Assembly: GCF_003634575.1 (NCBI RefSeq)
Contig: NZ_RBLJ01000005.1
Span: 248,001-312,000, forward strand
Direction of reading: 5' to 3'
From: Photorhabdus asymbiotica
GTDB lineage: Bacteria > Pseudomonadota > Gammaproteobacteria > Enterobacterales > Enterobacteriaceae
DNA length: 64,000 nucleotides
The position numbers and the translations under genes are program-made. Shown in pieces: positions 40,529-58,052 of this stretch; the stretch's first letter is position 1, and the number at the start of each line of letters is the position of its first letter. The notes below the pieces were generated by a model. That model saw nothing but the letters and a program-made list of their open reading frames with translations, was not told the origin of the DNA and made no database searches.

Positions 40529-42841
40529 ATGAAAGCACTCACCATTGGCTTAATCGGCAACCCCAATGCCGGCAAAACAACATTATTTAACCAACTTACT
40601 GGTGCCCGCCAACGTGTAGGCAACTGGGCGGGCGTCACGGTAGAACAGAAAACGGGCCGTTTTATCACTGCGGATCATAAAATCGAATTAGTTGACCTAC
40701 CAGGAACCTACTCTCTCACCACGATTTCCGAACAAACATCACTGGATGAGCAGATAGCCTGTCACTATATTCTAAGCGGTGATGCTGACATGCTGATTAA
40801 CGTAGTAGACGCTTCTAACCTTGAACGAAATCTCTACCTAACACTGCAACTACTAGAATTAGGCATTCCATGCATTATTGCTCTGAATATGCTGGACATT
40901 GCTAAAAATCAACATATCCAAATTGATATTGCCGAACTGGAACAACGCCTTGGCTGTCCGGTCATTCCAATGGTGTCAACACGTGCTACCGGGCTAAATG
41001 AGCTGAAACAAGCAATAGACCATCATAAACAGAATTCTGGGCAGCCACTGATTCGCTACCCCGACAGTCTATTACAGGAAGTTGACAAGCTGTCTGGAGC
41101 AATTTCAGACAATTTTAATCCTCAACAACGCCGCTGGTTAGCACTTCAGATGCTCGAAGGGGATATTTACAGTCTGGGACGTTCCGGTCTTGCTACTTCA
41201 ATGTTGGCTGAATCCAAAGAATGCTTACAACAACAGCAACATGAAGAACCTGAACTGGTCATTGCCGATGCACGTTATCAAGGTATCAACGCATTATGTA
41301 TGGCAGTGATCGACACCCAAAAAGCCATGCCAAACAAACTCACACAAGCAATCGATAAAATTATCCTCAACCGCTGGTTGGGCGTGCCAATTTTCCTGAT
41401 TGTGATGTATTTAATGTTCGTGCTGGCAATTAATATCGGTGGTGCATTACAGCCCATTTTCGACAGTGGTTCTATTGCTATTTTCATTCACGGCGTTCAA
41501 TGGCTTGGTCATACGTTAAGCTTTCCTGAATGGCTGACAGTTTTCCTCGCGCAGGGTATCGGTGGCGGTATCAACACCGTGCTACCACTCGTGCCACAAA
41601 TCGGCATGATGTATTTGTTCCTCTCTTTCCTTGAAGACTCCGGTTATATGGCACGAGCGGCGTTTGTTATGGACCGTCTGATGCAAGTCCTGGGGCTGCC
41701 GGGCAAATCATTTGTCCCGTTGATTGTTGGTTTCGGTTGTAACGTCCCATCAATAATGGGAGCAAGAACGCTGGATGCACCACGTGAACGCCTGATCACC
41801 ATTATGATGGCACCATTTATGTCCTGTGGTGCACGATTGGCCATCTTTGCCGTATTCGCTGCGGCGTTCTTTGGCAAAAACGGTGCAACCATTGTTTTCT
41901 CCCTTTATATATTGGGAATTGTAGTGGCTATCCTGACTGGCCTGATGCTGAAATACACCATTATGCGTGGTGAAGCTTCACCCTTCGTTATGGAACTTCC
42001 GGTTTACCATATTCCACATCTGAAAACCCTGCTTCTGCAAGCATGGCAGCGCCTGAAAGGGTTTGTTATCCGTGCTGGCAAAGTGATCGTTATCGCCAGT
42101 ATGTTTATTGGCGCCCTTAACAGCTTTTCTTTCTCAGGCCAAGCTGTGGATAGCATCAACGAATCCGCTCTGGCTTCGGTCAGCAAAGCCATTACACCTG
42201 TATTACAGCCAATCGGTGTTCACTCAGATAACTGGCAGGCAACAGTCGGTCTGATAACCGGCGCAATGGCAAAAGAAGTCGTTGTCGGGACACTCAATAC
42301 CTTATACACCGCAGAAAGCATCACTAATGAACCGTTTGATGCAGATGGTTTCAACCTACTTGGTGAACTGAAAGATGCTGTTAACGAAACCTGGGATAGC
42401 CTGAAAGATACCTTCACTCTGAGCGTACTTTCCAACCCAATTGAAGCCAGCAAAGGTGACGGTGAAATGGACAGCGGTTCAATGGGAACAATGAGTACCA
42501 AATTCGGCTCTGCCATTTCTGCTTACAGTTATTTGATTTTTGTCCTGCTGTATGTCCCTTGTGTTTCTGTCATGGGAGCTATCGCCCGTGAAACCAGCCG
42601 TGGCTGGATGACATTCTCCATTCTGTGGGGGCTGAACGTAGCTTATTCAATTTCAACCCTGTTCTACCAGATGGTGACTTTTTCACAGCATTCGCAAAGC
42701 AGCCTGATCATTATTCTGACCGTCATTACATTTAACGCGCTGGTGTTCTACTTCCTGCGCCGAGCACGCAGCCGTGTAACGATGAAATTAATCAGCAACC
42801 CGGGAAATAACTGCCACTGCTCCAGTGGAAACTGTCACTAG
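40529..42841 (+). CDS. feoB: Ferrous iron transporter FeoB
   Basis: 770-aa inner-membrane Fe(II) transporter. N-terminal G domain: G1 GNPNAGKTT, G3 DLPGTYS, G4 NMLD; then a GDI-like helical region, and a membrane domain with two Gate repeats (core with GCNVPSIMGART and the later PCVSVMGAIARETS, both holding a conserved Cys). C-terminal HCSSGNCH resembles a metal-binding tail. Length near E. coli FeoB (773). Confidence 0.97.
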   Translation: MKALTIGLIGNPNAGKTTLFNQLTGARQRVGNWAGVTVEQKTGRFITADHKIELVDLPGTYSLTTISEQTSLDEQIACHYILSGDADMLINVVDASNLERNLYLTLQLLELGIPCIIALNMLDIAKNQHIQIDIAELEQRLGCPVIPMVSTRATGLNELKQAIDHHKQNSGQPLIRYPDSLLQEVDKLSGAISDNFNPQQRRWLALQMLEGDIYSLGRSGLATSMLAESKECLQQQQHEEPELVIADARYQGINALCMAVIDTQKAMPNKLTQAIDKIILNRWLGVPIFLIVMYLMFVLAINIGGALQPIFDSGSIAIFIHGVQWLGHTLSFPEWLTVFLAQGIGGGINTVLPLVPQIGMMYLFLSFLEDSGYMARAAFVMDRLMQVLGLPGKSFVPLIVGFGCNVPSIMGARTLDAPRERLITIMMAPFMSCGARLAIFAVFAAAFFGKNGATIVFSLYILGIVVAILTGLMLKYTIMRGEASPFVMELPVYHIPHLKTLLLQAWQRLKGFVIRAGKVIVIASMFIGALNSFSFSGQAVDSINESALASVSKAITPVLQPIGVHSDNWQATVGLITGAMAKEVVVGTLNTLYTAESITNEPFDADGFNLLGELKDAVNETWDSLKDTFTLSVLSNPIEASKGDGEMDSGSMGTMSTKFGSAISAYSYLIFVLLYVPCVSVMGAIARETSRGWMTFSILWGLNVAYSISTLFYQMVTFSQHSQSSLIIILTVITFNALVFYFLRRARSRVTMKLISNPGNNCHCSSGNCH

Positions 42842-42850
42842 GAGTTAAAA

Positions 42851-43090
42851 ATGATTAGCCTGTTACAAGTAAGGGATGCCGTCGCTCTGAATGGACGGGC
42901 AGATGCTAAATTGCTGAGCCACCAGCTTTCTGCTTCATTATCGATGGTTGAAGCGATGCTTGAACAGCTCACCGTAATGGGCAAATTGGAAAAGATTAAT
43001 GCAACTGCCTGCCTAAGCGGCGGTTGCAAACAATGTCCTGAAGCACAGAAATGTGATACGGCGGTTTATAGGATTGCTGGGGGGCATTAG
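42851..43090 (+). CDS. feoC: FeoC, putative Fe-S regulator of ferrous iron transport
   Basis: 79-aa winged-helix protein. Four C-terminal cysteines (C54, C59, C62, C68 in CLSGGCKQCPEAQKC) form the [4Fe-4S]-binding loop of FeoC. Begins 9 bases after the feoB stop. In relatives it protects FeoB from FtsH proteolysis in low oxygen. Confidence 0.92.
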   Translation: MISLLQVRDAVALNGRADAKLLSHQLSASLSMVEAMLEQLTVMGKLEKINATACLSGGCKQCPEAQKCDTAVYRIAGGH

Positions 43091-43130
43091 TCATCTTATA
43101 GAATGGCTAATCATATTATAGCTAGTCTGG

Positions 43131-43162
43131 GATAAACCCTATTTTTTAAAGTGGGGTTTATC
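43131..43162 (+). terminator. Hairpin after feoC
   Basis: Stem GATAAACCC / GGGTTTATC around a T-rich loop, 40 bases after feoC; no T-run follows. Confidence 0.45.
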
Positions 43163-43214
43163 AACAATCTGTTGGTCCAAGGGTCATAAGCCACAACTAA
43201 ACACATACAGTCTG

Positions 43215-43514
43215 TTAACTTACCGGCATTTGGAAAACAAATCTTCCCCCAAGCGCGGCAGCGTAACGGCTTAAAGTATCCAAATTTGGCACACTTTTGC
43301 CATTTTCCATACGACTAATGTTTTGTTTCTGTGTACCAATCTTCTGAGCAACATCTTGTTGAGTAAGATGTAACGCTTTACGTGCATCTTTAAGCTGTTT
43401 CATCAACGCCTTGCGGATCTGGATATCGTTATATGCTTCCAGAGTCGCGGCGTCTTCTAAGAGAAGCGTTTTAGCTTCAGAAAACGGGATAATATCATAA
43501 TCATTATCAGACAT
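43215..43514 (-). CDS. XRE/HigA-type antitoxin
   Basis: 99-aa protein with a Cro/CI-type helix-turn-helix: residues about 50-90, LTQQDVAQKIGTQKQNISRMENGKSVPNLDTLSRYAAALG. Its N-terminal part (IIPFSEAKTLLLEDAATLEAYND) matches antitoxins that pair with phage-Gp49/HigB-like toxins. The gene starts 14 bases after the end of a frameshifted toxin gene on the same strand, so toxin-first order as in higBA. The antitoxin itself looks intact. Confidence 0.88.
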   Translation of the reverse strand: MSDNDYDIIPFSEAKTLLLEDAATLEAYNDIQIRKALMKQLKDARKALHLTQQDVAQKIGTQKQNISRMENGKSVPNLDTLSRYAAALGGRFVFQMPVS

Positions 43515-43528
43515 TTTTAAGACTCCGT

Positions 43529-43841
43529 TTAATCTCTTGCATTCGTTGGTTTTGCTAGATCGATCGATTTCTTCGGCGTTTTTTGGGTTTTCTTTTGCAG
43601 TATATGAACAACATAAAACTGTTGTCCAACTGCAAAAAAGAAAAACCCCCTCGCAATACCCTCAGAAGCATTGACTCTTAACTCTTTAAGCCCGTTTTCC
43701 CATGTCTCTAACTTTAGGCTCTTTTAAATCTGTTCCAGCAACTTCTAGTTCTTCAATGGCCTCAATCATTGAAACTTTGAGACCAACAGGTAACTTAGAA
43801 AGCTCCTTAAATGCCGCTCTTATAATGTTTGCTGAAAACAT
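43529..43841 (-). pseudogene. HigB/Gp49-like toxin gene, single-base frameshift
   Basis: Translation from ATG 43841 gives MFSANIIRAAFKELSKLP ... KEPKVRDMGK, then a premature stop. The neighbouring frame continues the same family pattern, NGLKELRVNASEGIARGFFF ... VGQQFYVVHILQKKTQKTP. Joining them needs removal of one A from the run AAAA at 43695-43698, giving a normal length of about 103 aa. Either a real inactivating frameshift or a base-calling error in a homopolymer. Confidence 0.85.
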
Positions 43842-43880
43842 AAAATTAATCCATTCAATTTACTACTTTAACATGCACAC

Positions 43881-43908
43881 CAAAAGTAATCAAAATAGAT
43901 TACTTTTG
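43881..43908. promoter_or_regulatory. 11-bp inverted repeat upstream of the toxin-antitoxin operon
   Basis: CAAAAGTAATC and GATTACTTTTG separated by 6 bases, 40 bases upstream of the toxin start. Good candidate operator for antitoxin autorepression. Confidence 0.6.
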
Positions 43909-44111
43909 TGAGCGAAGCAAGCTATCTATTTATAGGGAACAAGCACAGATATGCTCCCAATAAAATCACTCAAAAAATTATGCGTACTAACACCCACGAT
44001 AGCGTCAGTTCACCGACAAAATCAGCATTTTTTCACTTATGCAACGAAAAAATTAATTAAACCGCCGCATCCACGCGGCGGATACTTGACCATTTTAATA
44101 ACTCATCAAAC

Positions 44112-44888
44112 TCATAATGCTTCTCTACCCACAAATTCAGTCAATAACCCAACAAACTCATCAGGATGAGAAATAAAAGGTGCATGAGCGGCATGACGCA
44201 TTATGGTTGAAACCGAACGCGGCCATTTTTCATCCAAGATATTGAGAATTTTTCTTGGCACCAAACCATCCAGATAGCCGTAAATCCGCAGGAATGGAAT
44301 GGTCAGCGCAGCCAAAGATTCTCTTAAATCTTCAGTACACAAAATTTCCAAACCAACATGCAGCACTTCAACAGCAGGCATCGGCTGCACCAGTACAACT
44401 GATTTCAGTAGCCTTGCATCTTGACGGGCACTATCTGTACCCATCGTCTGTAAAGCAAGGAAACGCTCGACGGTACGCTGGAAATCTTCACTAAGTTGAT
44501 GTTCGAAATCGCTCAAAACTTCCGGCTTAATCCCCGGCCAGTCACCTTCTGCACTGAAATGTGGTGAAGAAGCCACAGTAATTAATCCGGCAACCTTATC
44601 CTGATGATCAAGCGCAATCCGACTGGCAACCAACCCTCCCAACGACCAACCGAGCCACAGCGCATTTTCAGGGGCATGTCGCCAGACCTCATCCGCCATA
44701 TCCGCGAGGCTCATCGGGCCATATTTCTGGCTACGGCCATAGCCCGGTAAATCCACCAGATGCAACCGAAAATGCGGAGCGCATCGCATTTCAATGGAAC
44801 GCCAGACTTCCGCATTCAGCCCCCATCCGTGCAGCAGCACAAGATCACGCGAATCTCCATCAGAAGTCTGCCAAAACAGATCAGCCAT
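44112..44888 (-). CDS. bioH: Pimeloyl-ACP methyl ester carboxylesterase BioH
   Basis: Alpha/beta hydrolase that removes the methyl group from pimeloyl-ACP methyl ester in biotin synthesis. Nucleophile elbow GWSLGG (Ser), Asp in YGYLDGLVP, His in [11 protein letters not shown]: the complete triad. Start ATG 44888 (MADLFWQT) chosen, 258 aa against 256 in E. coli. The intact gene lies at the left end of the island; its first 43 codons are duplicated on the right at 54145-54274. Confidence 0.95.
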
Positions 44889-45179
44889 TGTTATTCTCAA
44901 CTTTATTTGCCATCAAGGAAGAAGCCTATGCTAACAATGGTTGGGTACTGTTGGCTATGCCATCAACCTCTTTGGTTTCCACATCATGGAATATGCAGTT
45001 TTTGCAACAAGCGGCTGAAACGTTTGATAAACATGTGCCCATGCTACGCCCTGCCCTCAGAATTAACTTCACTGCCTTGTGGGCGCTGTATCAAGACACC
45101 GCCTCTATGGGAAAATATGATAGCGATCACCGATTATCGCCCTCCATTGAGCGGCCTTATTCGCCGCTATAAATATCAC
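44759..45179. repeat. 421-bp direct repeat, left copy (bioH 5' end + gntX 5' end)
   Basis: Aligns without gaps to 54145-54565; I count 8 substitutions (about 98% identity). It spans the start of bioH, the 39-base divergent promoter region and the first 84 codons of gntX. Sequence diverges abruptly at both ends. Confidence 0.95.
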
Positions 45180-45182
45180 TAG
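44928..45182 (+). pseudogene. Truncated gntX (5' part only), left copy
   Basis: 84 codons identical in frame to the start of the intact gntX at 54314, then an immediate TAG where the duplicated segment ends (45180-45182). It has changes not in the intact copy, including loss of a zinc-finger cysteine (CPCY for CPCC) and K-to-T and R-to-G substitutions, consistent with relaxed selection or a different source strain. Confidence 0.9.
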
Positions 45183-45234
45183 TGAATAGGTTAAAAGATC
45201 TAAGCCAAAGAAAGTGTAAAATGAAAAATAATTA

Positions 45235-46452
45235 CTATTGTTTTATATAAGCATGCTTTACAACTAGGAGGATAAAATAAGAAAATGAGATTGTGACGAT
45301 CAGAATGAGAAAAATATAAGGGGATTTATAATATGAAATTAAATATCCCATCAGAACAGGACTGACCGCTGCACCTAAACTGCCTAGGTTTTGTATTGCG
45401 AAGTAATGTCCCCTGAATCCCTCAGGTGCTATACTATCAGTAAGCGCGTAAAGGACAGGGATAAAAATGATCTCTCCCAACGAGAAAGAAAACATTGCAA
45501 TTATCCAATAAATCAAGTTCTGTTCAGAATAGATAAAACCAAAAATACCGAGGATAAAAAAAATTGCTCCTCCCGTCAGCCATCTTCCGATATAATCATC
45601 TTTAATATACTTTCCAACATGATATTGAAATCCTATAACAACCATAGCATTTGTTACCATCATTGCAGCAATAGCTGTATATGAAAACTCCTTATTTGTA
45701 TAAACAATTAAATATTGAGATAAGTAGCTAATGGTACTACCATATACAAAAGACCCGAGTACTGATGAAATCGTTATCAGAAAAAGCAAATGATTCTTTA
45801 AGGGCTTTATATTACTGATGGTATCTGCCAATAATCTATTATTCCTCTGAGATAATATAGGCAAGGAGTGAAAACATGAAGAATAGTATATTATAATAAA
45901 TATCATCGGGAGCAATGCAGTAAGACCAGACAATATGAAAGGGAAACTATGATTATAACCTGAAAGCAAGGCACCAATTAATGGACCAACGGACCACCCT
46001 ACATTAATAAGCGTGTAGTTTAAAGAAAATAATCTTATCTTAATACTTTGTGGTAAATAATCAGAAAAATAACTCTTTAATAGCACCTCAAATAATGAGT
46101 AAGCTAAGTTCACAAGAGCGAGAAGAAAAGAAATAAGGATACTATTTTTAAAATATGGAAAAATTAAAAAACAGAATAAAAAAGTCAAAAGTGAGGATAG
46201 AATAGGAAGTTTGAATTTTTTATTGTCAGCAAGCATACCTCCAATTAAGCTGGTTATTATTCCAAATACCATAGATGAAGATATAATATATCCAACAATA
46301 ACAGGACTAAAATTAAGCTCTACAGATAAATATATGGCTAAATAAGGGAGTGATGCCCCGCGGCCAATCGTTAACAATAATGATGAAAAGAGAAAAAAAG
46401 ATACTATTCTCTCGTTTTTAAATACATGTAATAAACTAATATTATAATTCAT
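45235..46452 (-). CDS. MFS transporter (MdtH-like), island exporter candidate
   Basis: 405-aa, 12-segment major facilitator protein. The motif-A-like loop GGMLADNKKFK lies after TM2; DYLPQSIKIRLFSLNYTLINVGWSVGPLIGALL resembles TM4-5 motif C of proton antiporters. Extremely AT-rich, with Ile/Phe/Ser bias unlike bioH or gntX. It is divergent from the biosynthetic-looking operon that starts at 47322 and is the only membrane transporter in the island, so export of the island's product or of its inhibitor is the likely job. Confidence 0.85.
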   Translation of the reverse strand: MNYNISLLHVFKNERIVSFFLFSSLLLTIGRGASLPYLAIYLSVELNFSPVIVGYIISSSMVFGIITSLIGGMLADNKKFKLPILSSLLTFLFCFLIFPYFKNSILISFLLALVNLAYSLFEVLLKSYFSDYLPQSIKIRLFSLNYTLINVGWSVGPLIGALLSGYNHSFPFILSGLTALLPMIFIIIYYSSCFHSLPILSQRNNRLLADTISNIKPLKNHLLFLITISSVLGSFVYGSTISYLSQYLIVYTNKEFSYTAIAAMMVTNAMVVIGFQYHVGKYIKDDYIGRWLTGGAIFFILGIFGFIYSEQNLIYWIIAMFSFSLGEIIFIPVLYALTDSIAPEGFRGHYFAIQNLGSLGAAVSPVLMGYLISYYKSPYIFLILIVTISFSYFILLVVKHAYIKQ

Positions 46453-47321
46453 GATATTGATTAAATTCTCCCTTAGTTTATTTTCATATAATGGTCTATA
46501 TATTTTTTATCATTATGAACACCATAAATACTTTCTAAAATAACATATAAATCCGTTATTAATTCCTGGTAATACCGCCGAAAACCCTTAAAACAAATGG
46601 AAAAGACCTTAAATATGGCGATTTTTCTTTATTTTCGCTAATATTATGAGAAAAATAATCACCCTCGATTACTTTCCGACTACCATCAGCTGATATCTTT
46701 TCAATACGAATATAACGTACAAGATAAAATCCAGTGGTAAGTATTACTTGCGATTGTAGAGTCTGCAAGCCATTTCTAAAGAAAATTATTAGGAAGAAAA
46801 AATTAATTAATGATAATATTAATTAATTTTCGGTATTGTTTTTCTAGACATATCCATCCAGAAATTAGCACAATTACTGTTATTTTCTAAATGTTTTATA
46901 TGCAATGGGTTATAATGTAGTTGTCATAAAAAGCACTTTTAGTCAAAATTATAATTTTAACATTAACTTGCTGATATTTAAAAATAAAAAATCCCAAATG
47001 ACATCAAGCTTCGACAATGAGAATAAATCTTATAAAAAATTGATTGATCTTCTATAAGAATGTTGTTATTAGAATGTGTGGTATTCGCCTCCTGCTCTAT
47101 ATATTTTTATTGATTAATACAACGTAACTAGTTGCATTGTGGCAACTTAAAATTCTTATAATCAATTATGATTTATCATAACCTGTATCAATTTTTTATT
47201 CTTTAAACCGCATTATACCGAGAGCATTGAATCATTTTATGCAAGTTGTAGCGTTATATGTTGTACCCGTATTTTCATATGAAATGTTCCGTATTGTGAT
47301 CATGTCATTTAGGAGAAAATT
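46453..47321. other. Divergent promoter region of the island (869 bp)
   Basis: No gene I can support. It holds a 13-bp inverted repeat at 46799-46830 and an 18-base stretch (46753-46770) shared with 6987-7004. Very AT-rich. A 69-codon minus-strand frame (46559-46768) has no ribosome binding site or family signal. Confidence 0.5.
46799..46830. terminator. 13-bp AT-only inverted repeat
   Basis: AAAATTAATTAAT and its complement flank GATAAT. With AAAA/TTTT edges it can act as a weak bidirectional terminator, or be a regulator-binding palindrome in the divergent promoter region. Confidence 0.4.
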
Positions 47322-47963
47322 ATGGAAAACGTTCATGCTAAAACTATCAGTACAAACCATATCATCAGTTCAGCAATGGTAAGCCAGAATGAGCTGTGTC
47401 GTATATCAAACAATGCAGATGCTATCAGAGCTAAGGCAATGGAACTCACGGATTCTTGGGAGGGAGTGATGTTTGCCCTGTCTGCGGAAGAACTAGAAAA
47501 TATTGCACTAGCGTTAGAGTTTTCACCAGATATTGCTGATAAGATCCACAATGAACTTAAAACATTACAATATGCAAAAATACAGTCTCAAGTTGGTCCT
47601 TCTTTTATCGCAACTTATCATGTCTTAGATGTCAGCTTGCTGGCTCTAAGGGGAGTAACAGATTTTGATAATGCCCTTTCCCATGTAAATGATTTTAATC
47701 TACAGTCCTTTCTGAACGAGAATCAGTACACCTTCCAGAAAATCCGTGCTGCTCTGCCGGGACATGCTGCACGTATGAATTTCAAGCCTGAAACCGCTGC
47801 GGCTGTTCTGAAAGCCTTAGGTGCAAATATTTCCCCAGATCTGCTTTATGAACTTTGTCCAAAATATGGCACAAGCTCAGTTATCGATCTGGAAGGTCGA
47901 CGTGGTGTTACCACGGAATTTATCAGGAGTGTGACACTTACTCTCGGGATGACACTGGTATAG
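47322..47963 (+). CDS. Unrecognised 213-aa protein, first gene of the island operon
   Basis: I do not recognise a family. AGGAGA site 6 bases before ATG makes translation convincing. Mostly helical, acidic N-half (MELTDSWEGVMFALSAEELENIALALEFSPDIADKI); the middle is hydrophobic-helical; a C-terminal segment (about 180-213) ends in an uncharged beta-like stretch, SVTLTLGMTLV. No signal peptide, no membrane segment, three cysteines (C26, C183 and none clustered). Its place ahead of two oxygenases, a radical SAM enzyme and a methyltransferase makes it a candidate substrate protein, carrier or scaffold, but a regulator is equally possible. Confidence 0.8.
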   Translation: MENVHAKTISTNHIISSAMVSQNELCRISNNADAIRAKAMELTDSWEGVMFALSAEELENIALALEFSPDIADKIHNELKTLQYAKIQSQVGPSFIATYHVLDVSLLALRGVTDFDNALSHVNDFNLQSFLNENQYTFQKIRAALPGHAARMNFKPETAAAVLKALGANISPDLLYELCPKYGTSSVIDLEGRRGVTTEFIRSVTLTLGMTLV

Positions 47964-48091
47964 TTCATCATAATGCTCATATCTGGTGCTGTTTTTCTTT
48001 CAGCGCCAGTTTTTACGTATTCACAGCTCGGCCTGAATATAATCTTTCATCTGTTATTTTCTTGAAAACTATTTTATATATGGAAAGAAAA

Positions 48092-48976
48092 ATGTGTTCT
48101 GATATAAATAGATTAGAACCTGGACTAATAAAGAAATATAAAGAAGAGGGGTTTCTTCTTATTCCTTCTCTTATTAGCGAAGAAGATTTGATCATCTTGG
48201 AAGCGACCATTCAAAATATCATCAGAGATGTCGAAAATCATGAAACAGCCACCCAAGTTATTGAATACGAAAATACTCAAGTTGATGGTCTCTGGCTGCC
48301 AAGAAGATTGTTTAATCCCTTTGAGTTACATGAGCAGTTCAGACGAATTGCCACTTCAGAACAGATTCTCGGGCATGTTATATCTTTGATAGGCCAGGAT
48401 ATAGCCCTGCAACATAGTAAACTTAACATGAAGCCACGAAAAGTCGGCGCTGCTGTAGAATGGCATCAGGATTTCACCTATTTCCCACATACTAATGACG
48501 ATCTTGTTGGTGTACTTATTTATCTGGATGACGCTACTTCTGAAAATGGCTGCCTGGAAGTTTTGCCACGTCAACATACGCGATCTTTCGATCATTCACT
48601 TCCTGATGGCTCTTTTGCCGGGATGATTACAGAAGAAATAGATGAAGAAAATTATGGTCAGCCTGTTACGTTAGCAGCTAAAGCAGGAGGTACAATATTT
48701 TTGCATCCTTTTACTCCTCACCGTTCGGCTCCTAATGTTTCAGAGCAACCAAGAAAAACGTTGATTTTTGAATACAGGGCAGCTGATGCTTTCCCGATAT
48801 ATACAGGAAGCCAGCTAGTATCCATGGAGTCATATGTCCATCACCTTCATGGTAATCCTGCCACATACGCCCGCTTCGGTGGCCCCTCTCCTGCTATTTA
48901 CACACCAAAAAATATACCTAAATCCCTCTATGAGCTTCAGGAGGTTTCGAGCAAAATTTTGAAACCAAAGGAGTGA
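48092..48976 (+). CDS. PhyH-family Fe(II)/2-oxoglutarate dioxygenase 1
   Basis: 294-aa phytanoyl-CoA dioxygenase-like hydroxylase. Facial triad H125-x-D127 (EWHQDFTYF) and H210 (PHRSAPN), with R221 positioned to bind the 2-oxoglutarate carboxylate. N-terminal LIKKYKEEGFLLIPSLIS is the usual PhyH opening. The frame is open far upstream into the previous gene; ATG 48092 (MCSDINRL) has GGAAAG just before it, ATG 48080 is an alternative. Acts presumably on a small molecule or amino acid in the island pathway. Followed 50 bases later by a second PhyH gene. Confidence 0.87.
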   Translation: MCSDINRLEPGLIKKYKEEGFLLIPSLISEEDLIILEATIQNIIRDVENHETATQVIEYENTQVDGLWLPRRLFNPFELHEQFRRIATSEQILGHVISLIGQDIALQHSKLNMKPRKVGAAVEWHQDFTYFPHTNDDLVGVLIYLDDATSENGCLEVLPRQHTRSFDHSLPDGSFAGMITEEIDEENYGQPVTLAAKAGGTIFLHPFTPHRSAPNVSEQPRKTLIFEYRAADAFPIYTGSQLVSMESYVHHLHGNPATYARFGGPSPAIYTPKNIPKSLYELQEVSSKILKPKE

Positions 48977-49026
48977 TTCTTATTAAAGTTTCCACTCTAC
49001 AATTTATTTCGTTTGGGAGATAAAAA

Positions 49027-50010
49027 ATGCTTAGTAATCAATGTGTAAATATTATCGATCAGTACAGGAATGATGGTTATGTTGTTATACGTAATGTTCT
49101 TAATCCAGTTACAGATCTTTTACCGGTTATAAAAGAATACGGTGAACTTGCAAATAAACTTGCCAATCAATGGCTGGGGCAAGGAATTATTACAAGTTAT
49201 GATAAAAATGCACCCGAAGAAAATCGGCTTTTACAGTTAATGAAGCAAACTGACGGAAACTGTTTTCAGGAGCTTGATATTACGCTTCCGGTGGAAGCCG
49301 AAATTAAGGAGGACTCTCCGGTACATTTAGGAGAGGCAATATTCAATCTCTTGAGAAACCAGACAATTCTTGACGTAGTAGAAAATATTATTGGGTCTGA
49401 AATCTATTCAGTTCCCGTACAACACATGCGCATTAAACCACCCGAAGCACAAATTACAGATGAAACTCAAAGTCACACACTTACATTAACGGGAAAAACC
49501 TTTTGGCATCAGGATTTAGCAGTTGTGACCCAGGACGCTGATAATACAGATATGTTGAGTGTCTGGTTACCCCTGAATGAAGCAACCGAAAAAAATGGTT
49601 GCTTGGTTGTGATACCCGGAAGTCACACCAAGGGACTTGTGCACCATTGTGATACCCCTGTTTTACAAGGAATTCCCGATTCACTGATAGGTGAAAACAT
49701 ACGTCCTATTCCAGCGAAACCAGGAGACATGGTGCTCCTTCATCCACTGATGATACATGCATCTTTATCCAATATCAGCACGCACGGAAGATGGAGTCTT
49801 GATCTGCGATATTGCCCTACTGGTCAACCGACAGGTCGACGATGGTTTCCTGGTTTTATTGCGAGAAGTAAATCTCACCCTGAGAAAGAATTATCTGATT
49901 ATGAGGTCTGGGTCGAATCATGGCACTTTGCAAGACAAACCTTAGCCGGGCAACCTCATCCAAAATTCGATCGCTGGGATAAAAATGATCCCAGCCCTTT
50001 ATGCGCATGA
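49027..50010 (+). CDS. PhyH-family Fe(II)/2-oxoglutarate dioxygenase 2
   Basis: 327-aa second PhyH-type enzyme, only distantly like the first. Triad H161-x-D163 (FWHQDLAVV) and H244 (HPLMIHASLSN), with R255 for 2-oxoglutarate. It is longer, with an insertion around residues 45-110. A GGGAGA site precedes the ATG. The last bases run to within 10 bases of the radical SAM start, so the two are translationally close. A second oxidation step (hydroxylation, desaturation or ring formation) on the same intermediate is likely. Confidence 0.87.
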   Translation: MLSNQCVNIIDQYRNDGYVVIRNVLNPVTDLLPVIKEYGELANKLANQWLGQGIITSYDKNAPEENRLLQLMKQTDGNCFQELDITLPVEAEIKEDSPVHLGEAIFNLLRNQTILDVVENIIGSEIYSVPVQHMRIKPPEAQITDETQSHTLTLTGKTFWHQDLAVVTQDADNTDMLSVWLPLNEATEKNGCLVVIPGSHTKGLVHHCDTPVLQGIPDSLIGENIRPIPAKPGDMVLLHPLMIHASLSNISTHGRWSLDLRYCPTGQPTGRRWFPGFIARSKSHPEKELSDYEVWVESWHFARQTLAGQPHPKFDRWDKNDPSPLCA

Positions 50011-50020
50011 GGAGAAACGA

Positions 50021-51673
50021 ATGTTAGATCTCTCTCTACTTCGCGACTCTGGTACGTTTTCGATCGATGGCGGCTCCCCACGGCTTGCCCTCGTTCATCA
50101 TGGCTTTCGTACGACGCAACTAGGAGCAACAGATAAAAGGCAGGATAAATATGCCGCCAGATATGCTTCGCTAGGATTGCTTAATCTGGCTCGTTCCGCT
50201 CAAGTGGACTTTGAACGTGGCCGTATACCTTTTCAACCTGAGATACAATATTTCGATGAGGATAATTTTACAGATGACGTTGAGCTGGCAAAAGCCATAA
50301 GCGATTGGTTAAGGCCATCAAAAGCGAGATTTGTATTGGTCAGCCTGTATTCACTAGCATTTGAAAGGACAAAGAATATGCTGTCCAATCTTAACCCCGA
50401 AGAAGTTTGCATTATGGTTGGAGGGGCACACCCAACCGTAGCTCCTGAAATTGATTTCGTGCATCTTGTAGCAAGAGGTGAAGGAGGAAATGCTCTAAGG
50501 CATGTTCTTAGGCTGTTCCTACATCCTGAATTTGGCATGGGGAACGAAGCGCGTGGTTTGTGTTTCATGTTGGATGGTAAAGTTCAAATGGGAGAAGTCG
50601 TATTTGATAAATCTCTTGAGGATATTCCCTCACCAGCCTTTTCCTATGAACTAATACAGAATGATACTAGCTTCGCTGGGCAGTCCCGGGAAAGATGGTG
50701 GAAAGCGGTAGGAGAATCGCAACAAATTTATATTTGTACACAAAGCTGCCGAGCTCGCTGTACGTTTTGTTCAACATATCTTATACATGGGAAGCTCGTT
50801 TCCCGACCAGTTGAGTTAATTGCAGGAGATATTGAACACCTTTTAACATTCGGTCATGACTCAATTCAGTTTCATGATGACGATCTACTTCAACATGAAA
50901 ATTTACATGAACTTCTTGATTTGCTTTTAGAGTTTAATATTGCATGGACTTGCAATGCAAGATCAGAAGTAATAACACCAGCACTTGCTCGCCGAATGTA
51001 CGATGCCGGATGCAAAAAAGTTTTTTTAGGGGTTGAATCGTTAGACCAGAGAAGCCTAAATTATTACAACAAAGCGACCACCGTAGAAATGAATATAAAT
51101 GCGGTAAATGCATTAAATAGCTCAGGTATCGGAGTTATATGCGGATACATCATTGGCGCACCTCATGACACAGTTGAAAGCATCTTAGCTGATTTAGATC
51201 GAGTTTTAGCTTTACCTATATATTTCCTAGCCACAGCAATACTAACACCAGATATAGGCACTGTTGAATACCGCAGAGCCTTGCGGCGAATACCTTTGCT
51301 GCAAGAGTTAGGTAACGATGGAACGAAAATGAATATTAGACCACGTCCTGAGATATTTGGAACTTCTGCCCCATATGGTTTACCTACTGTAGCTGAAGCT
51401 ATATCTAAAGAAGAGTTAAATGAGCTTTATGCTCTTATTAATTGTGAATTCTTCTTAAGGAAAGAATATATTAATAGAGTAATAAAATATACTTCAAATG
51501 ATAGGCTAAATGAAGCGCTTTCATGGTGTTCACTACAGAAGCTGAAAGCAGAAGAATTAGCAGAAAGCGCAACACTGGCCTCAGTACAGGAGAGAACTGT
51601 TCAGTTACTCCAGAAAATAGATGCAGACTATCCGTATTATGGTGTCCTTTCTGAATTTGCTGAGGCTAGATAA
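50021..51673 (+). CDS. B12-binding radical SAM enzyme
   Basis: 550-aa class B radical SAM protein. The N-terminal half is a cobalamin-binding domain (about 20-170, with IMVGGAHPTVAPE and LVARGEGGNALRHVL), the centre holds the cluster motif C243-x3-C247-x2-C250 (CRARCTFC), and then a TIM-barrel with FHDDDLLQHE and the GVESLDQRSLNYYNKATT segment. Such enzymes usually methylate unactivated carbon or do ring contractions. ATG 50021 has a GAGGAGA site 7 bases upstream; the in-frame ATG at 49985 overlaps the previous gene. Confidence 0.9.
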   Translation: MLDLSLLRDSGTFSIDGGSPRLALVHHGFRTTQLGATDKRQDKYAARYASLGLLNLARSAQVDFERGRIPFQPEIQYFDEDNFTDDVELAKAISDWLRPSKARFVLVSLYSLAFERTKNMLSNLNPEEVCIMVGGAHPTVAPEIDFVHLVARGEGGNALRHVLRLFLHPEFGMGNEARGLCFMLDGKVQMGEVVFDKSLEDIPSPAFSYELIQNDTSFAGQSRERWWKAVGESQQIYICTQSCRARCTFCSTYLIHGKLVSRPVELIAGDIEHLLTFGHDSIQFHDDDLLQHENLHELLDLLLEFNIAWTCNARSEVITPALARRMYDAGCKKVFLGVESLDQRSLNYYNKATTVEMNINAVNALNSSGIGVICGYIIGAPHDTVESILADLDRVLALPIYFLATAILTPDIGTVEYRRALRRIPLLQELGNDGTKMNIRPRPEIFGTSAPYGLPTVAEAISKEELNELYALINCEFFLRKEYINRVIKYTSNDRLNEALSWCSLQKLKAEELAESATLASVQERTVQLLQKIDADYPYYGVLSEFAEAR

Positions 51674-51675
51674 CT

Positions 51676-52473
51676 ATGAAACCAGAAAAAGAAATTATCC
51701 CTTTTTCCCCCGAGATGATACAAAAGTTGATAAGTGAGGGGAAAGATCCACACTACTACGTTATTCAAGACTTCATGGAGGATAAATCATTAAATTTATC
51801 CGAATTGGATAAACAAAGCCTTGTTGACAGTCACTATTTGATTTCAAAAAAAATCATCAGCCCACACAGCACAGAAGATATATTTACTTTTATCAAAGAA
51901 ATATTATCAATACCATCTTCACGAGAGGGTTGTATCGTGGAAGCAGGAAGTTATAAAGGCTCAAGTACAGCCAAGTTCAGCCTGGCTGCTAAGTTAACAG
52001 GCAGAGAACTTGTTGTTTGTGATTCTTTTATGGGCCTTCCGTTTCATAATGAAGTTCATGGCATTAGTATTGAAGGAAGAGAAGCAGTGTTTAGGGAAGG
52101 TGATTTCGCAGGTTCTCTTCAAGAAGTAAAAAATAATATTATAAAATATGGTAATATCAGTTCATGTACATTTATTAAAGGGTGGTTTGAAACGTCCTTA
52201 GCTAATTGGTCACGACCAATAGCTGCAATCTATCTGGATGTCGATCTTCAAAAATCAACTCGCGACTGTCTCAAATATCTGTATCCATGGTTAACACCAG
52301 GCGGTAGCCTTTATTCACAAGACGGCCATTTACCACTTGTTCTTGATGTTTTTGAGGATGTGAATTTTTGGCGCAAAGAAATAGGCACTCAGCCCCCCAC
52401 AGTAGTGGGTATCAGGAAAAAGAAACTAATAAAAATAACAAAACCTGATACACCCTCTTTACCACTACTTTAA
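51676..52473 (+). CDS. TylF/MycF-type SAM-dependent O-methyltransferase
   Basis: 265-aa class I methyltransferase of the TylF family. SAM motif I is seen as VEAGSYKGSSTAKFSLAAKL, then VVCDSFMGLP (acidic residue for ribose), and YLDVDLQKSTRDCLKYLYPWLTPGGSLYSQDGH, with the DVD/metal-binding acids of the family. It starts 2 bases after the radical SAM stop codon, so the five-gene set 47322-52473 reads as one operon. Typical substrates are sugar or phenolic hydroxyls; the accompanying TyrRS makes a tyrosine-like phenol attractive but unproven. Confidence 0.85.
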   Translation: MKPEKEIIPFSPEMIQKLISEGKDPHYYVIQDFMEDKSLNLSELDKQSLVDSHYLISKKIISPHSTEDIFTFIKEILSIPSSREGCIVEAGSYKGSSTAKFSLAAKLTGRELVVCDSFMGLPFHNEVHGISIEGREAVFREGDFAGSLQEVKNNIIKYGNISSCTFIKGWFETSLANWSRPIAAIYLDVDLQKSTRDCLKYLYPWLTPGGSLYSQDGHLPLVLDVFEDVNFWRKEIGTQPPTVVGIRKKKLIKITKPDTPSLPLL

Positions 52474-52483
52474 TAATATTTCT

Positions 52484-53683
52484 TCAACCATCAATACGGA
52501 ATTTATATCGTTTACCTATCCATATAAGCATGCCAGGGATAACCTCAATATTTTTAATTTCATTATCTTCTTTACTTTTATCAACACGAACAGCTCCTGA
52601 ACGAATTAGCCGCCTTAGTTCAGAACGACTTATCGTTGGCAGGGCTACTGAACAAAGATCTAGCAGTGTTATATAAGAGCCTTTTGGTAAAATCAATACA
52701 TCATGATCAGCTTCTTCAGGTGTCCGCTTTTGTACTACACGCTCAAAATGCTCAGCTGCTTCCTTTGCAGATATGTCATCGTGATATCTTTTAACAATAT
52801 TATAAGCGATATCTTTTTTGACCTTCATTGGATTAAGGCCCAGTTCTAGTTGACTGACTATCGCAGATTGTTTTTCTGCCTCCATGTCTGTAGCAAGTGT
52901 CAAATAATTGATAATGACACTGTCAGGAATTGACATTACTTTGCCATACATATCATTTGCATTATCAGTTAACCCAATATAATTATTTTTTGACTTACTC
53001 ATTTTCTCAATACCATCTAGCCCTTCTAATAATGGCATTGTTATTACTATTTGCCCTTTTTTCTCATAGGCTTCTTGAAGTGTTCTCCCTACCAAGTTAT
53101 TAAATAACTGATCTGTTCCACCAAGCTCGATATCAGCATCAATCATAACTGAATCATATCCTTGTAGAATCGGGTAAATAATCTCATGTAAATGGACTGG
53201 TGATTTTGATTCAAATCGGGTTTTGAAATCATCTCGGTGCATGATTTGTGCAAGAGTAATTTTAGAGATTAACTTTATGACATTACTGAATGGCATATTA
53301 CTAAACCATTCTGAGTTTTTCCTTATTTCAATATTTTCGATATTTATAACTTTTGCAAGCTGATTTATATAAGTCTGACTGTTTTTATTAATTTGTTCAA
53401 GTGTTAGTGGAGGACGAAGCTTATTTCTCCCTGTCGGATCACCAATTCCAGCCGTAAAATCCCCAATGATCACAACAATCCGATGTCCTTCATCCTGAAA
53501 ATCTTTAAGCTTTTGTAATACAACCGAATGCCCCAAATGTAAATCAGGTGCAGTTGGATCAAAGCCTAATTTTATCGTCAGTTTTCTATTCTCTTGTCTT
53601 GCAAGAGCAAGTTTATCCTGTAGCCCTGAGGGTGGCTCCATAATTGCGATGTTTGAAAGCAACTTATCTATATTTTCTTTCAT
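52484..53683 (-). CDS. Second tyrosyl-tRNA synthetase (TyrZ-like clade)
   Basis: 399-aa complete class Ic synthetase. HIGH-type motif H49-L-G-H52 (DPTAPDLHLGHS), KMSKS 227-231 (GIEKMSKSKNN), ELGGTDQLFN in the active site, and a C-terminal S4 RNA-binding domain (about 335-399, SRSELRRLIRSGAVRVDK). The TAPDLHLGH form is the H. influenzae/TyrZ group, different from the E. coli TyrS type; the AT-rich codon use matches the island, not the core genome. Convergent with the methyltransferase gene (10 bases apart). Likely a self-resistance copy, or a synthetase feeding the pathway; both are inferences. Confidence 0.93.
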   Translation of the reverse strand: MKENIDKLLSNIAIMEPPSGLQDKLALARQENRKLTIKLGFDPTAPDLHLGHSVVLQKLKDFQDEGHRIVVIIGDFTAGIGDPTGRNKLRPPLTLEQINKNSQTYINQLAKVINIENIEIRKNSEWFSNMPFSNVIKLISKITLAQIMHRDDFKTRFESKSPVHLHEIIYPILQGYDSVMIDADIELGGTDQLFNNLVGRTLQEAYEKKGQIVITMPLLEGLDGIEKMSKSKNNYIGLTDNANDMYGKVMSIPDSVIINYLTLATDMEAEKQSAIVSQLELGLNPMKVKKDIAYNIVKRYHDDISAKEAAEHFERVVQKRTPEEADHDVLILPKGSYITLLDLCSVALPTISRSELRRLIRSGAVRVDKSKEDNEIKNIEVIPGMLIWIGKRYKFRIDG

Positions 53684-53984
53684 ATAGTTAACCTAAATAA
53701 TTATGTTTATTAATGATGAATAGAACAACTTTATACCATGTTTATAACAATCTCTATTGTCAAGTAAATAGTTATTCATTCGGGTCTTGTTGCATTAACG
53801 GCGATGTAGTACGCAAAAATATGTTGTTTGTTTTTTTACAGATGTACCTATCTCTATCAGAGACAAACAATCCCCTTTACCTTACATCCTCATTCGATCA
53901 ACAAATTAAGGATCTTCGACAATTTTAGGTTTTTGCAAAGCCGAATAACCGGTTAACTTATCAACTGAAGTTAACTGTACTGAA
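53684..53984. other. Spacer upstream of the island TyrRS gene
   Basis: About 300 bases with the TyrRS promoter somewhere inside and no supportable gene. Confidence 0.5.
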
Positions 53985-54145
53985 AAAGATCCCTTATAAA
54001 ACAAAAGACTTGTTTACCTGAAATCCGCTTAATCAAAGATTGCAGCCGGTCACCCATAGCATCATTTCGTAAAGCTCTTCGTTGCATGACTACTCTGGCA
54101 CCATGGACCAGAATATATCGAGAGTATCGATTACCGTTTTTGGTG
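53985..54145 (-). pseudogene. IS110/IS116-family transposase C-terminal remnant
   Basis: The frame reads [20 protein letters not shown] then MQRRALRNDAMGDRLQSLIK, the conserved C-terminal part of IS110-type transposases (usual form: SKxGNRYLRxLLxxGARAV). About 45 codons remain. The similarity ends exactly where the bioH-derived right repeat begins (54145), so the fragment marks the right island junction. Confidence 0.85.
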
Positions 54146-54274
54146 ATGCAACCGAAAATGCGGAGCGCATCGCATTTCAATGGAACGCCAGACTTCCGCA
54201 TTCAGCCCCCATCCGTGCAGCAGCACAAGATCACGCGAATCTCCATCAGAAGTCTGCCAAAACAGATCAGCCAT
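54145..54274 (-). pseudogene. Truncated bioH (first 43 codons), right copy
   Basis: Identical to the bioH start region (44759-44888) over 130 bases, then it runs into the IS110 remnant. No stop is imposed at the junction; the fused frame would continue into transposase residues. Confidence 0.9.
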
Positions 54275-54565
54275 TGTTATTCTCAACTTTATTTGCCATC
54301 AAGGAAGAAGCCTATGCTAACAATGGTTGGGTACTGTTGGCTATGCCATCAACCCCTTTGGTTTCCACATCATGGAATATGCAGTTTTTGCAACAAGCGG
54401 CTGAAACGTTTGATAAACATGTGCCCATGCTGCGCCCTGCCCTCAGAATTAACTTCATTACCTTGTGGGCGCTGCATCAAGAAACCGCCTCTATGGGAAA
54501 ATATGATAGCGATCACCGATTATCGCCCTCCATTGAGCCGCCTTATTCGCCGTTATAAATATCAC
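54145..54565. repeat. 421-bp direct repeat, right copy
   Basis: Second copy of the bioH/gntX junction; see 44759-45179. Here the gntX side is the intact gene and the bioH side is the truncated one. Confidence 0.95.
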
Positions 54566-54997
54566 AGTACTCCACAGCTTGCGTCAGTTTTGGCGCGTCT
54601 GTTTCTGCTGCATTGGCAACAGGGCTATCGTGATGGGCGATGGTTTAAACCCAATATTCTGCTCAGTGTGCCACTGCATCGGCACAGACGCTGGAAACGG
54701 GGATTTGATCAAGGCGAATTAATGGCAAAGCAATTATCAGAATGGCTACAATGCGACTATCAGCAAAGCATTCTGCAACGCACGCGTGCTACACTACCAC
54801 AAAGAAATTTATCAGCAGCACAGCGCAGAACCAATCTCAGGAAAGCATTTCAGCTTTGTGGCCCAGTTGCAGGACAACATGTCGCCATACTTGATGACGT
54901 TATTACCACTGGTGCGACGATAACTGAAATTTCCCGTTTGTTAATTCGTGCTGGCGCCCGTTCAGTACAGGTCTGGGCGATTTGTCGAACCTTGTAG
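54314..54997 (+). CDS. gntX: GntX/ComF-family phosphoribosyltransferase-like protein (YhgH)
   Basis: 227 aa, the E. coli length. N-terminal zinc ribbon with CWLC, CSFC, CPCC and CGRC; C-terminal type I PRTase domain with VAILDDVITTGATITE. Needed for use of DNA as a nutrient in E. coli. ATG 54314 chosen (MLTMVGYCWLC); the frame is open upstream only because of the junction. Normally divergent from bioH with a shared short promoter region; that region is retained in the duplicated segment. Confidence 0.94.
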   Translation: MLTMVGYCWLCHQPLWFPHHGICSFCNKRLKRLINMCPCCALPSELTSLPCGRCIKKPPLWENMIAITDYRPPLSRLIRRYKYHSTPQLASVLARLFLLHWQQGYRDGRWFKPNILLSVPLHRHRRWKRGFDQGELMAKQLSEWLQCDYQQSILQRTRATLPQRNLSAAQRRTNLRKAFQLCGPVAGQHVAILDDVITTGATITEISRLLIRAGARSVQVWAICRTL

Positions 54998-55056
54998 TCA
55001 ATATGAGAATGGGCGTATCATAACCAACTATAGCAGTCAACTATTGAGCAAATGAC

Positions 55057-55632
55057 ATGATTAATATTACTGAAGCAGCGCAAGCTCATTTTGCCAAATT
55101 ACTGGCAAACCAAGAACCCGGTACACAAATCCGCGTATTTGTCATCAATCCAGGTACGCCCACCGCTGAATGTGGTGTGTCTTACTGCCCACCGGATGCC
55201 GTTGAAGCAACAGATACAGAACTGAAGTTTGAAAAACTGTCAGCTTACGTTGATGAACTGAGTGCACCGTTCCTTGAAGAAGCAGAAATTGATTTTGTCA
55301 CTGATCAGCTAGGCTCCCAGCTAACACTAAAAGCCCCCAACGCCAAAATGCGTAAGGTTTCTGATGATGCTCCGCTTGTCGAGCGTGTGGAATATGTTTT
55401 GCAGTCACAAATTAACCCACAATTAGCAGGTCACGGTGGTCGTGTTAGCCTGATGGAAATCACTGATGAAGGTTTCGCTATCCTTCAGTTCGGTGGTGGT
55501 TGTAATGGCTGTTCAATGGTCGATGTCACCCTGAAAGAAGGGATTGAAAAAGAGTTATTGAACATGTTCCCTGAACTGAAAGGGGTAAAAGACTTAACCG
55601 AACATCAGCGCGGTGAACATTCTTATTACTAA
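55057..55632 (+). CDS. nfuA: Fe-S biogenesis protein NfuA
   Basis: 191-aa [4Fe-4S] carrier delivering clusters to aconitase and LipA. N-terminal degenerate A-type (IscA-like) domain and C-terminal Nfu domain with the cluster cysteines in [19 protein letters not shown]. Length equals that of E. coli NfuA. Located next to gntX as in E. coli. Confidence 0.97.
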
Positions 55633-55641
55633 TAATTGATT

Positions 55642-55669
55642 TTCCCGCTCGGATAACCGTCGGGAAAAC
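55642..55669. terminator. Hairpin after nfuA
   Basis: TTTTCCCG / CGGGAAAA arms around a 12-base loop 10 bases past the nfuA stop. Confidence 0.6.
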
Positions 55670-55727
55670 ATCATTACAATAATAACCATTGGTATAGCCG
55701 CTAAATTCTAAGAGCAATTCAAAATAT

Positions 55728-56063
55728 ATGGAACATTTTCAAACAATCAGCCCCGAGCAAGCTTATCAACACTGGCAGGATAAATCCGCTATTATGGTAG
55801 ATATCCGCGATCCACAGAGTTTCCAAGCCGGTCATGTATGTGGGGCTTTTCATTTAACCAATGAAACATTGAATGAATTTATGCTACAGGCCAATTTCGA
55901 ACAACCTGTGATGGTTATGTGTTACCACGGCCACAGCAGCCAAAGTGCTGCGCAATACTTACTGAACCTGGGTTTCGAAGCCGTTTACAGCATTAATGGC
56001 GGCTTTGAAGCCTGGCTGAAAAACTATCCTCACGCTGTTGACTCCTTACGTAATCCGGCATAA
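55728..56063 (+). CDS. glpE: Thiosulfate sulfurtransferase GlpE
   Basis: 111-aa single-domain rhodanese; [21 protein letters not shown] and the active-site loop [10 protein letters not shown] with the catalytic Cys. Matches E. coli GlpE (108 aa). First gene of glpE-glpG-glpR, which here point in the same direction as glpD, whereas in E. coli glpEGR and glpD are divergent. Confidence 0.95.
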
Positions 56064-56073
56064 CAAACATCTC

Positions 56074-56922
56074 ATGATCCGCGTAATCACTATTTCAAAT
56101 CCGCGCCTGGCGCAAAGCTTTATCGATTATATGGCAACCCATCAGGTATACCTGACTATGCATCCGGGTCACGATGAACGCCATGTAGAACTGTGGCTAG
56201 AAGATGACACTAAACTCGCACTGGTTCAGCAAGAGCTGGAGAAATTTACCCGTGATCCACTGAACGAACGTTATCAGGCCGCCAGTTGGCAATCTGGCAA
56301 AATCAGCCACTCATTAAAATACCAGAATAATCTAAACTGGCATTATTTGAGCCGTCAGGCTGGCCCGTTAACGATCACCGTTCTAATCCTGAATATCGCC
56401 GTTTATCTCTGGATGCAGTTCGCCGGGGATTATCAGGTGATGTATTGGCTGGCCTGGCCTGACAACAGCCAACATATGGAGCTGTGGCGTTGGGTTACTC
56501 ACGGTTTGCTGCATTTCTCACTACTACATATCATATTCAATCTGATGTGGTGGTGGTACCTTGGCGGGCAAACAGAAAAGCGTCTCGGTACAGGAAAACT
56601 GTTTGTTATTACTATTGTCTCCGCCGTTTTTAGTGGCTGGGGGCAATCACTATTCAGCGGCTCTAATTTTGGTGGTCTTTCCGGTGTTGTTTACGCCTTA
56701 ATTGGTTATGTTTGGTTAACCGGTGAACGAGCCCCCGAACACGGCATTGGCGTTCCTCGTGGTTTGATGGCTTTTTCGATCCTCTGGCTGATTGTTGGCT
56801 ACTTCGATACGTTTGGACTCTCTATTGCCAACGCAGCCCATTTCTCTGGTTTAACTATCGGCTTACTGATGGCACTGTGGGATAACCGCCATACATTTAA
56901 AAATAATAACCGGCATTTTTAA
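56074..56922 (+). CDS. glpG: Rhomboid protease GlpG
   Basis: Intramembrane serine protease. 282 aa from ATG 56074 ([16 protein letters not shown]), which aligns with E. coli; the frame is open to 56038 inside glpE. Cytosolic N-domain (1-90), then six membrane segments with the catalytic Ser in [10 protein letters not shown] and His in NAAHFSGL, and the oxyanion region [14 protein letters not shown]. 10-base gap from glpE. Confidence 0.96.
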
Positions 56923-56938
56923 GAATTAGGGGACTATC

Positions 56939-57697: not shown

Positions 57698-57708
57698 CCA
57701 TTTTTCTC

Positions 57709-57835
57709 TATACCCAATAAATTTCGAGTTACAGCGCGGCGGCAAGAGAACGAATCCCCAGGAGCATAGATAACTATGTGACTGGGGTGAGTGAAAGCAG
57801 CCAACAAAGCAGCAACTTGAAGGATGAAGGGTATA
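57709..57835 (+). repeat. ERIC element 7 (127 bp)
   Basis: Complete ERIC of the second subfamily (as at 15016), starting 11 bases after the glpR stop. Confidence 0.92.
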
Positions 57836-58001
57836 TATTGGGGATAAAGCTATCCCCAATATATTCTTACAATTCCATCTCTATAATCTCCTAATTAATA
57901 CCATGTCAATTATATAGGTACGACAATATTTGCCACCCATATCACGCAAACATGTTTTTTCTCAGTTAGTAGTTGGCTATTAATAAATTTATGACTACAA
58001 T

Positions 58002-58041: not shown

Positions 58042-58052
58042 TAGGGGGATGC

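Follow-up and report, generated by a model that had tools for sequence, protein, structure and literature searches.

Why would Photorhabdus, an insect-killing bacterium, carry a second tyrosyl-tRNA synthetase (TyrRS) next to two oxygenases, a radical S-adenosylmethionine (SAM) enzyme, a methyltransferase and an exporter? The question is raised by an island in a 64,000-nucleotide stretch of the Photorhabdus asymbiotica genome (contig NZ_RBLJ01000005.1, positions 248,001 to 312,000; hereafter the window), where seven genes are enclosed by a pair of 420-bp bioH/gntX repeats. An earlier note on this DNA had proposed a cluster for an antimetabolite that blocks the housekeeping TyrRS. We favour this reading with moderate confidence: the island would be a cassette that makes and exports a small, amino-acid-like antimetabolite directed at TyrRS, with the island TyrRS as immunity, since the pattern in which this gene occurs fits a self-resistance gene. 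In support of the proposal, the gene order is conserved in Pantoea, the island TyrRSs form a single clade, and TyrRS outlasts the pathway in one genome (G006); a resistant active site, however, is not visible in the sequence. The features are, in coordinates of the window:

44760-45179: left repeat copy, the 5′ end of bioH plus a 5′ fragment of gntX (direct repeat, 420 bp)
45235-46452, minus strand: major facilitator superfamily (MFS) exporter, YdeE-like, 405 aa (Pfam MFS_1, 100 bits; NCBIfam NF007472 YdeE, 289.7 bits, under the cut-off of 582)
46453-47321: divergent intergenic region, AT-rich, the site of a Mu-like prophage in P. noenieputensis
47322-47963, plus strand: U213, first operon gene, 213 aa, no known family (orthologues found; 70% identity to Pantoea)
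48080-48976, plus strand: PhyH1, Fe(II)/2-oxoglutarate (2OG)-type oxygenase (Pfam PhyH, 104 bits; H-x-D...H intact)
49027-50010, plus strand: PhyH2, Fe(II)/2OG-type oxygenase (Pfam PhyH, 91 bits; H-x-D...H intact)
50021-51673 (open reading frame (ORF) 49985-51673), plus strand: B12-type radical SAM enzyme with CxxxCxxC (Pfam Radical_SAM; likely start Met13)
51676-52473, plus strand: TylF/MycF-type O-methyltransferase (Pfam TylF, 57.7 bits against a cut-off of 23)
52484-53683, minus strand: second TyrRS, KMSKS type, the proposed self-resistance gene (Pfam tRNA-synt_1b; TIGR00234)
54146-54565: right repeat copy, a 5′ fragment of bioH plus the start of intact gntX (direct repeat, 420 bp)

The gene content given in the earlier note is borne out by ORFs, Pfam and NCBIfam. 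U213, PhyH1, PhyH2, the radical SAM gene and TylF follow one another as an operon, with gaps of 116, 50, 10 and 2 bases when Met13 is taken as the start of the radical SAM protein, and are flanked by the divergent MFS gene and the convergent TyrRS gene. Matches to MFS_1, PhyH (twice), Radical_SAM, TylF and tRNA-synt_1b pass the curated Pfam cut-offs. The block is AT-rich, as had been noted: its GC fraction (45180-54144) is 0.368, compared with 0.441 in the left flank (40001-45179), 0.449 in the right flank (54145-60000) and 0.42 for the window as a whole. Within the flanks, individual kilobases drop to 0.39. The limits proposed for it, 45180 and 54144, fall within two bases of the inner edges of the repeat, a structure that the note does not mention. 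The island does lie between bioH and gntX as described, except that the left gntX and the right bioH are 5′ fragments.

The island TyrRS is full-length, as claimed, and passes TIGR00234 (348 vs 113.8 bits). HLGH and KMSKS are present and the S4 domain scores 20.5 bits, below the Pfam cut-off of 22.8; judged by its motifs, the enzyme appears catalytically complete. The comparison with the genomic tyrS that had been suggested shows that it is not the sole TyrRS. A housekeeping-type enzyme is encoded elsewhere in the genome (G000:C1:424411) and is 29% identical to it, and a separate housekeeping-type tyrS is present in 12/12 Photorhabdus genomes, with 27-30% identity to the island TyrRS over matched parts. 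The island type (TyrRS2) is found in four of these 12 genomes, always with the cassette or a remnant of it and, where the flank is readable, in the feoB-bioH-gntX region.

The island TyrRS has matches in 173 of 274 class genomes (E 1e-90, the window’s own genome included). It is 40-47% identical to the KMSKS-type TyrRSs listed from other Gammaproteobacteria, and its Pantoea counterpart shares 44-45% identity with three Bacillales enzymes. We placed the island enzymes in a tree of 32 rows, from which the G006 TyrRS was excluded; 8/29 inner branches are starred, and the three long branches are housekeeping Photorhabdus, Miltoncostaea and Collinsella. All five island TyrRSs, which come from Morganellaceae and Erwiniaceae, group in one starred clade (support 100/99, stem length 2) that stands apart from the other KMSKS-type enzymes as its own deep clade. 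The assignment to a TyrZ-like clade is correct as to type, KMSKS, but the island enzymes have a clade of their own. A single clade indicates that the TyrRS most likely travelled with the pathway instead of being acquired anew in each host.

All seven genes, in the order and on the strands seen in the window, are encoded on plasmid pML.8a3 of Pantoea dispersa (Erwiniaceae), with an extra 62-aa ORF between MFS and U213. Over aligned residues, identity between the two cassettes is 73.6% for the radical SAM enzyme, 70.4% for U213, 62.1% for PhyH2, 59.0% for PhyH1, 58.8% for TyrRS, 58.2% for TylF and 34.9% for MFS, and the active-site motifs of the enzymes are retained. Within Photorhabdus, the radical SAM enzyme of the window is 94-96% identical to those of P. 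noenieputensis DSM 25462, P. heterorhabditis SF41 and P. luminescens DSM 3368. The co-occurrence check proposed earlier came out in favour of the cluster: TyrRS adjoins TylF in all five loci with operon genes (the window, three other Photorhabdus and Pantoea), is also part of the G006 remnant, and no operon was found without it. We conclude that the seven genes constitute a conserved cassette and not a chance neighbourhood, and we favour a cassette that moves horizontally.

No further cassette was found beyond these loci in the sampled genomes and the plasmid, phage-record and viral-contig collections searched. The radical SAM query matched one of 369 sampled class genomes, the window’s own (E 1e-40), and eight of its nine plasmid matches are under 60% identity with 16-63% coverage. 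No relative turned up when viral contigs were scanned with U213 and radical SAM patterns or when phage records were searched with the Pantoea radical SAM protein, and E. coli genomes held no DNA match to window positions 49240-51454.

The six loci form a decay series. TyrRS is open in all of them, TylF and the radical SAM gene in five, and U213, PhyH1, PhyH2 and a full-length MFS in four; all seven genes are open in 4/6. The cassette is whole in the window, P. luminescens and Pantoea. In P. noenieputensis every gene is open, but a 33-kb Mu-like prophage (transposase, transposition protein, baseplate proteins and DNA invertase; L072/L073/L007) lies inside the island, about 70 bases upstream of U213 in the operon leader, and separates MFS from U213 by 33 kb. 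In P. heterorhabditis U213 is gone, PhyH1 lacks nearly half of its length and MFS its start, and PhyH2 is in two frames, a break that could be a sequencing error in this draft genome. The G006 remnant comprises a partial MFS, the C-terminal 147 residues of TylF and a whole TyrRS, at a junction that fuses mid-MFS to mid-TylF and leaves TyrRS intact. The private codon changes of the G006 TyrRS are six synonymous and one nonsynonymous (P 0.0014 vs neutrality). Between the window and the other Photorhabdus, the ratio of nonsynonymous to synonymous substitution rates (dN/dS) is 0.07-0.25 for the seven cassette genes. A TyrRS that outlasts its pathway supports an immunity role, though the position of the G006 TyrRS just beyond a single deletion weakens this support.

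What might the pathway make? PhyH1 and PhyH2 combine the PhyH family score with the triads that the earlier note described as intact (H129-x-D131...H214 and H161-x-D163...H244), each invariant in 4/4 aligned sequences. The radical SAM cysteines reported as C243, C247 and C250 are residues 255/259/262 from the first ATG, the former numbering counting from Met13, at whose position the Pantoea protein begins; they are invariant in 5/5 rows. The B12-binding domain of this enzyme scores 25.5 bits, below the Pfam cut-off of 32.1. The best NCBIfam match is the PhpK family at 76.6 bits, which falls short of the 600-bit cut-off and does not place the enzyme in that family, and the score is far under every NCBIfam cut-off listed (25 of 37 matched families). 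TylF is assigned as an O-methyltransferase by its Pfam score. From their families, we presume 2OG-dependent hydroxylation by the PhyH enzymes, likely B12-dependent methylation by the radical SAM enzyme and O-methylation by TylF. The cassette has no nonribosomal peptide synthetase (NRPS), polyketide synthase (PKS) or ligase, nor any other amide- or ester-forming enzyme among its Pfam matches. In the scheme we propose, U213, PhyH1, PhyH2, the radical SAM enzyme and TylF would build the product from a simple precursor by oxidation, probably C-methylation, and O-methylation. The MFS protein would export it. The product would block the producer’s ordinary TyrRS, and the island TyrRS, from a remote clade, would go on charging tRNA-Tyr.

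U213 has no significant match in Pfam, NCBIfam, PHROG or the PDB; the best hit of its profile against the PDB has E 0.5, and the best in single-member Pfam scans has E 0.016 (DUF2383, 2/9 members). An AlphaFold model from three near-identical rows is mainly helical and poor (mean predicted local distance difference test score, pLDDT, 46.5), and no fold search was based on it. We aligned nine of the ten sequences found, and that of G553 (L034) was omitted because it is a near-copy of L067. In this alignment (A9) 99/213 positions are invariant and cluster at 20-53, 103-126, 152-178 and 179-213. The invariant acids and histidines (E41, D44, E47, H76, H100, D103, H121 and D124) could bind metal, and U213 is perhaps a new helical metalloenzyme. 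It matched 2/394 sampled order genomes and, used as an alignment, 3/299 sampled phylum genomes; the third phylum match (G497, E 8e-4) was taken as chance.

Several points weigh against a TyrRS-targeting antimetabolite with a resistant second enzyme. Product class, target, insensitivity, step order and the role of U213 are all predicted from sequence. The residues that we take to form the tyrosine/ATP site of the Bacillus stearothermophilus TyrRS are mostly retained in the island enzyme, and the position we equate with Tyr34 is Lys, as in chains 6bqy and 1h3e; with its active-site residues kept or shared in this way, insensitivity is invisible in the sequence. There are 39 positions at which none of the five island enzymes has the residue seen in 16 or more of 18 other KMSKS-type TyrRSs (the 18, presumed housekeeping, are the best-scoring loci L013-L031 minus L022). 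We claim none of the 39 as a resistance change, some island residues, e.g., Leu39, being present in 1h3e as well. The radical SAM reaction is a guess, because the scores are so far below the NCBIfam cut-offs. For Pantoea dispersa the analysis covered the plasmid, and the count of housekeeping tyrS genes is one of Photorhabdus genomes. In P. heterorhabditis, with its broken pathway, TyrRS (eight synonymous and seven nonsynonymous changes, P 0.019 under neutrality) is kept no better than the radical SAM gene (14 and 12). The G006 TyrRS adjoins the deletion from outside and may therefore have survived by chance, and the codon changes private to it may be older than the deletion.

U213 also stands alone in 6/30 genomes of a related genus (L034, L067, L068, L069, L070 and L071), which from gene content is probably Xenorhabdus. 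Searches for radical SAM (E 1e-60) and island TyrRS (E 1e-40) were negative in these six, with no positive control inside the genus, and the same queries recover the island in Photorhabdus. As read from ORF lists, four of the six solo genes lie in the gyrB-asd interval, one lies beside asd at a contig end and one elsewhere. U213 is therefore not bound to the pathway, which argues for an enzyme over a dedicated precursor. We speculate, and consider it rather unlikely, that the island encodes a compact new pathway in which U213 represents a new family of enzymes or scaffolds and makes the core from a primary metabolite, the two oxygenases, the B12 radical SAM enzyme and the O-methyltransferase turn this core into a TyrRS poison, and the remote TyrRS confers immunity. 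Kin without the pathway would then retain the immunity gene against producing neighbours, and solo U213 would make the undecorated core.

Among the alternatives, a product that is a mis-charged tyrosine analogue and not an inhibitor, with the island TyrRS as the more selective synthetase, survives best, and we consider it improbable. The island enzyme is of the KMSKS/TyrZ type, and a precedent exists in Bacillus subtilis TyrZ, which according to passages of PMC9437257 guards against D-Tyr. The housekeeping TyrRS, however, would keep mis-charging unless displaced, and no displacing regulation was seen; no Rfam family, such as the T-box, matches at gathering score within 43000-56000.

More doubtful still is a biosynthetic TyrRS that supplies the pathway with Tyr-tRNA or an aminoacyl-adenylate to build from, or that loads a modified tyrosine onto tRNA. 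Its constant position beside TylF and the lack of other amide- or ester-forming enzymes among the Pfam matches would suit this role. Yet no tRNA-dependent ligase or cyclodipeptide synthase is among the listed Pfam and NCBIfam matches, the gene is convergent and not part of the operon, it is intact in G006, whose pathway is deleted, and Tyr-tRNA is already made by the housekeeping enzyme.

Least probable is that U213 is a large precursor of a ribosomally synthesized and post-translationally modified peptide (RiPP), acted on by the radical SAM, PhyH and TylF enzymes to release a piece that contains or imitates tyrosine: U213 comes first in the operon, its C-terminal 35 residues are 60% invariant and contain C-x-K-Y, the radical SAM enzyme weakly matches the RiPP families TIGR03975 (38 vs 281.85 bits) and ApyD (37.3 vs 750 bits), and the tailoring enzymes are of kinds known from RiPP pathways, but conservation is spread along U213 (24/34 columns invariant at 20-53, with a variable N-terminus), no precursor, leader-family or protease match was obtained for the seven proteins in Pfam or NCBIfam, and solo U213 occurs without the radical SAM enzyme.

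To our knowledge, natural TyrRS inhibitors are few, and we take TyrZ to be of the KMSKS type, like the island TyrRS. One tyrosine analogue that inhibits TyrRS is SB-219383, according to passages of PMC7916415. Producers of indolmycin, albomycin and mupirocin encode a second, insensitive synthetase of about 30% identity (TrpRS, SerRS and IleRS, respectively; passages of PMC9437257). The island likewise combines a divergent (29%) and complete second synthetase with biosynthetic-type genes and an exporter, the housekeeping copy being elsewhere; unlike these systems, its putative target is TyrRS and it has no NRPS or PKS. B. subtilis TyrZ is also a second TyrRS beside a TyrS-type housekeeping enzyme (same source), whereas the island enzyme is part of a cassette with biosynthetic-type genes and belongs to its own clade. 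The radical SAM enzyme resembles PhpK-family B12 radical SAM methyltransferases, and the cassette, unlike those, is without phosphonate genes. Within P. asymbiotica itself, passages of PMC12691670 describe thmABC, a small radical SAM cluster for the antimetabolite 4′-thiothymidine that also occurs in other Enterobacterales; in contrast to the island, it has an AbmG-like kinase, a triphosphatase and a nucleoside product. The words methyltransferase, phytanoyl and tyrosyl do not occur in the main text of that paper, nor do tRNA synthetase and phytanoyl in that of a global Photorhabdus/Xenorhabdus cluster survey (PMC9177418). Among the matches listed from open-access literature, mostly at title/abstract level, none describes this cluster or any TyrRS self-resistance cluster. 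Models for anti-phage defence in PADLOC match none of the seven cassette proteins (E 0.001). A nine-kilobase cassette with a presumptive immunity gene hints at the target ahead of the compound, is compact enough for expression in E. coli and, with U213, brings a conserved protein family that has no relative in the searched libraries.

The flanking repeat bears on how the island arrived. Its two copies are identical at 412/420 positions within the window and at 417/420 within P. heterorhabditis, and at only 383-390/420 when compared across these species. Identity that is higher within than between species is expected if a single old insertion left two copies that have since converted each other, and the repeat thus carries signs of concerted evolution. 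A different layout is seen in P. luminescens DSM 3368, whose island has feoB on one side and bioH on the other and no repeat. Both layouts could go back to a single insertion event in which bioH-gntX′ was duplicated, after which different copies of bioH were lost.

On the Pantoea plasmid, the cassette directly adjoins, at its TyrRS end, a phage tail module (baseplate and tail fibre assembly; L032, 15830-22586). Tail genes next to the P. noenieputensis and Pantoea cassettes suggested phage cargo, an idea that we rejected as a general explanation since the P. noenieputensis prophage landed inside the island; for Pantoea it is a possibility. Beside the right repeat of the window, 111 bases (53879-53989) are 80% identical to a Xenorhabdus plasmid and are possibly a mobile-element remnant. 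Further out, the window encodes a helix-turn-helix gene (43215-43514) of an apparent toxin-antitoxin pair, whose partner-gene region has about 130 bases extra relative to L066 (about 43809-43941), and an AT-rich block with ORFs at 60001-63000 (GC about 0.30-0.33).

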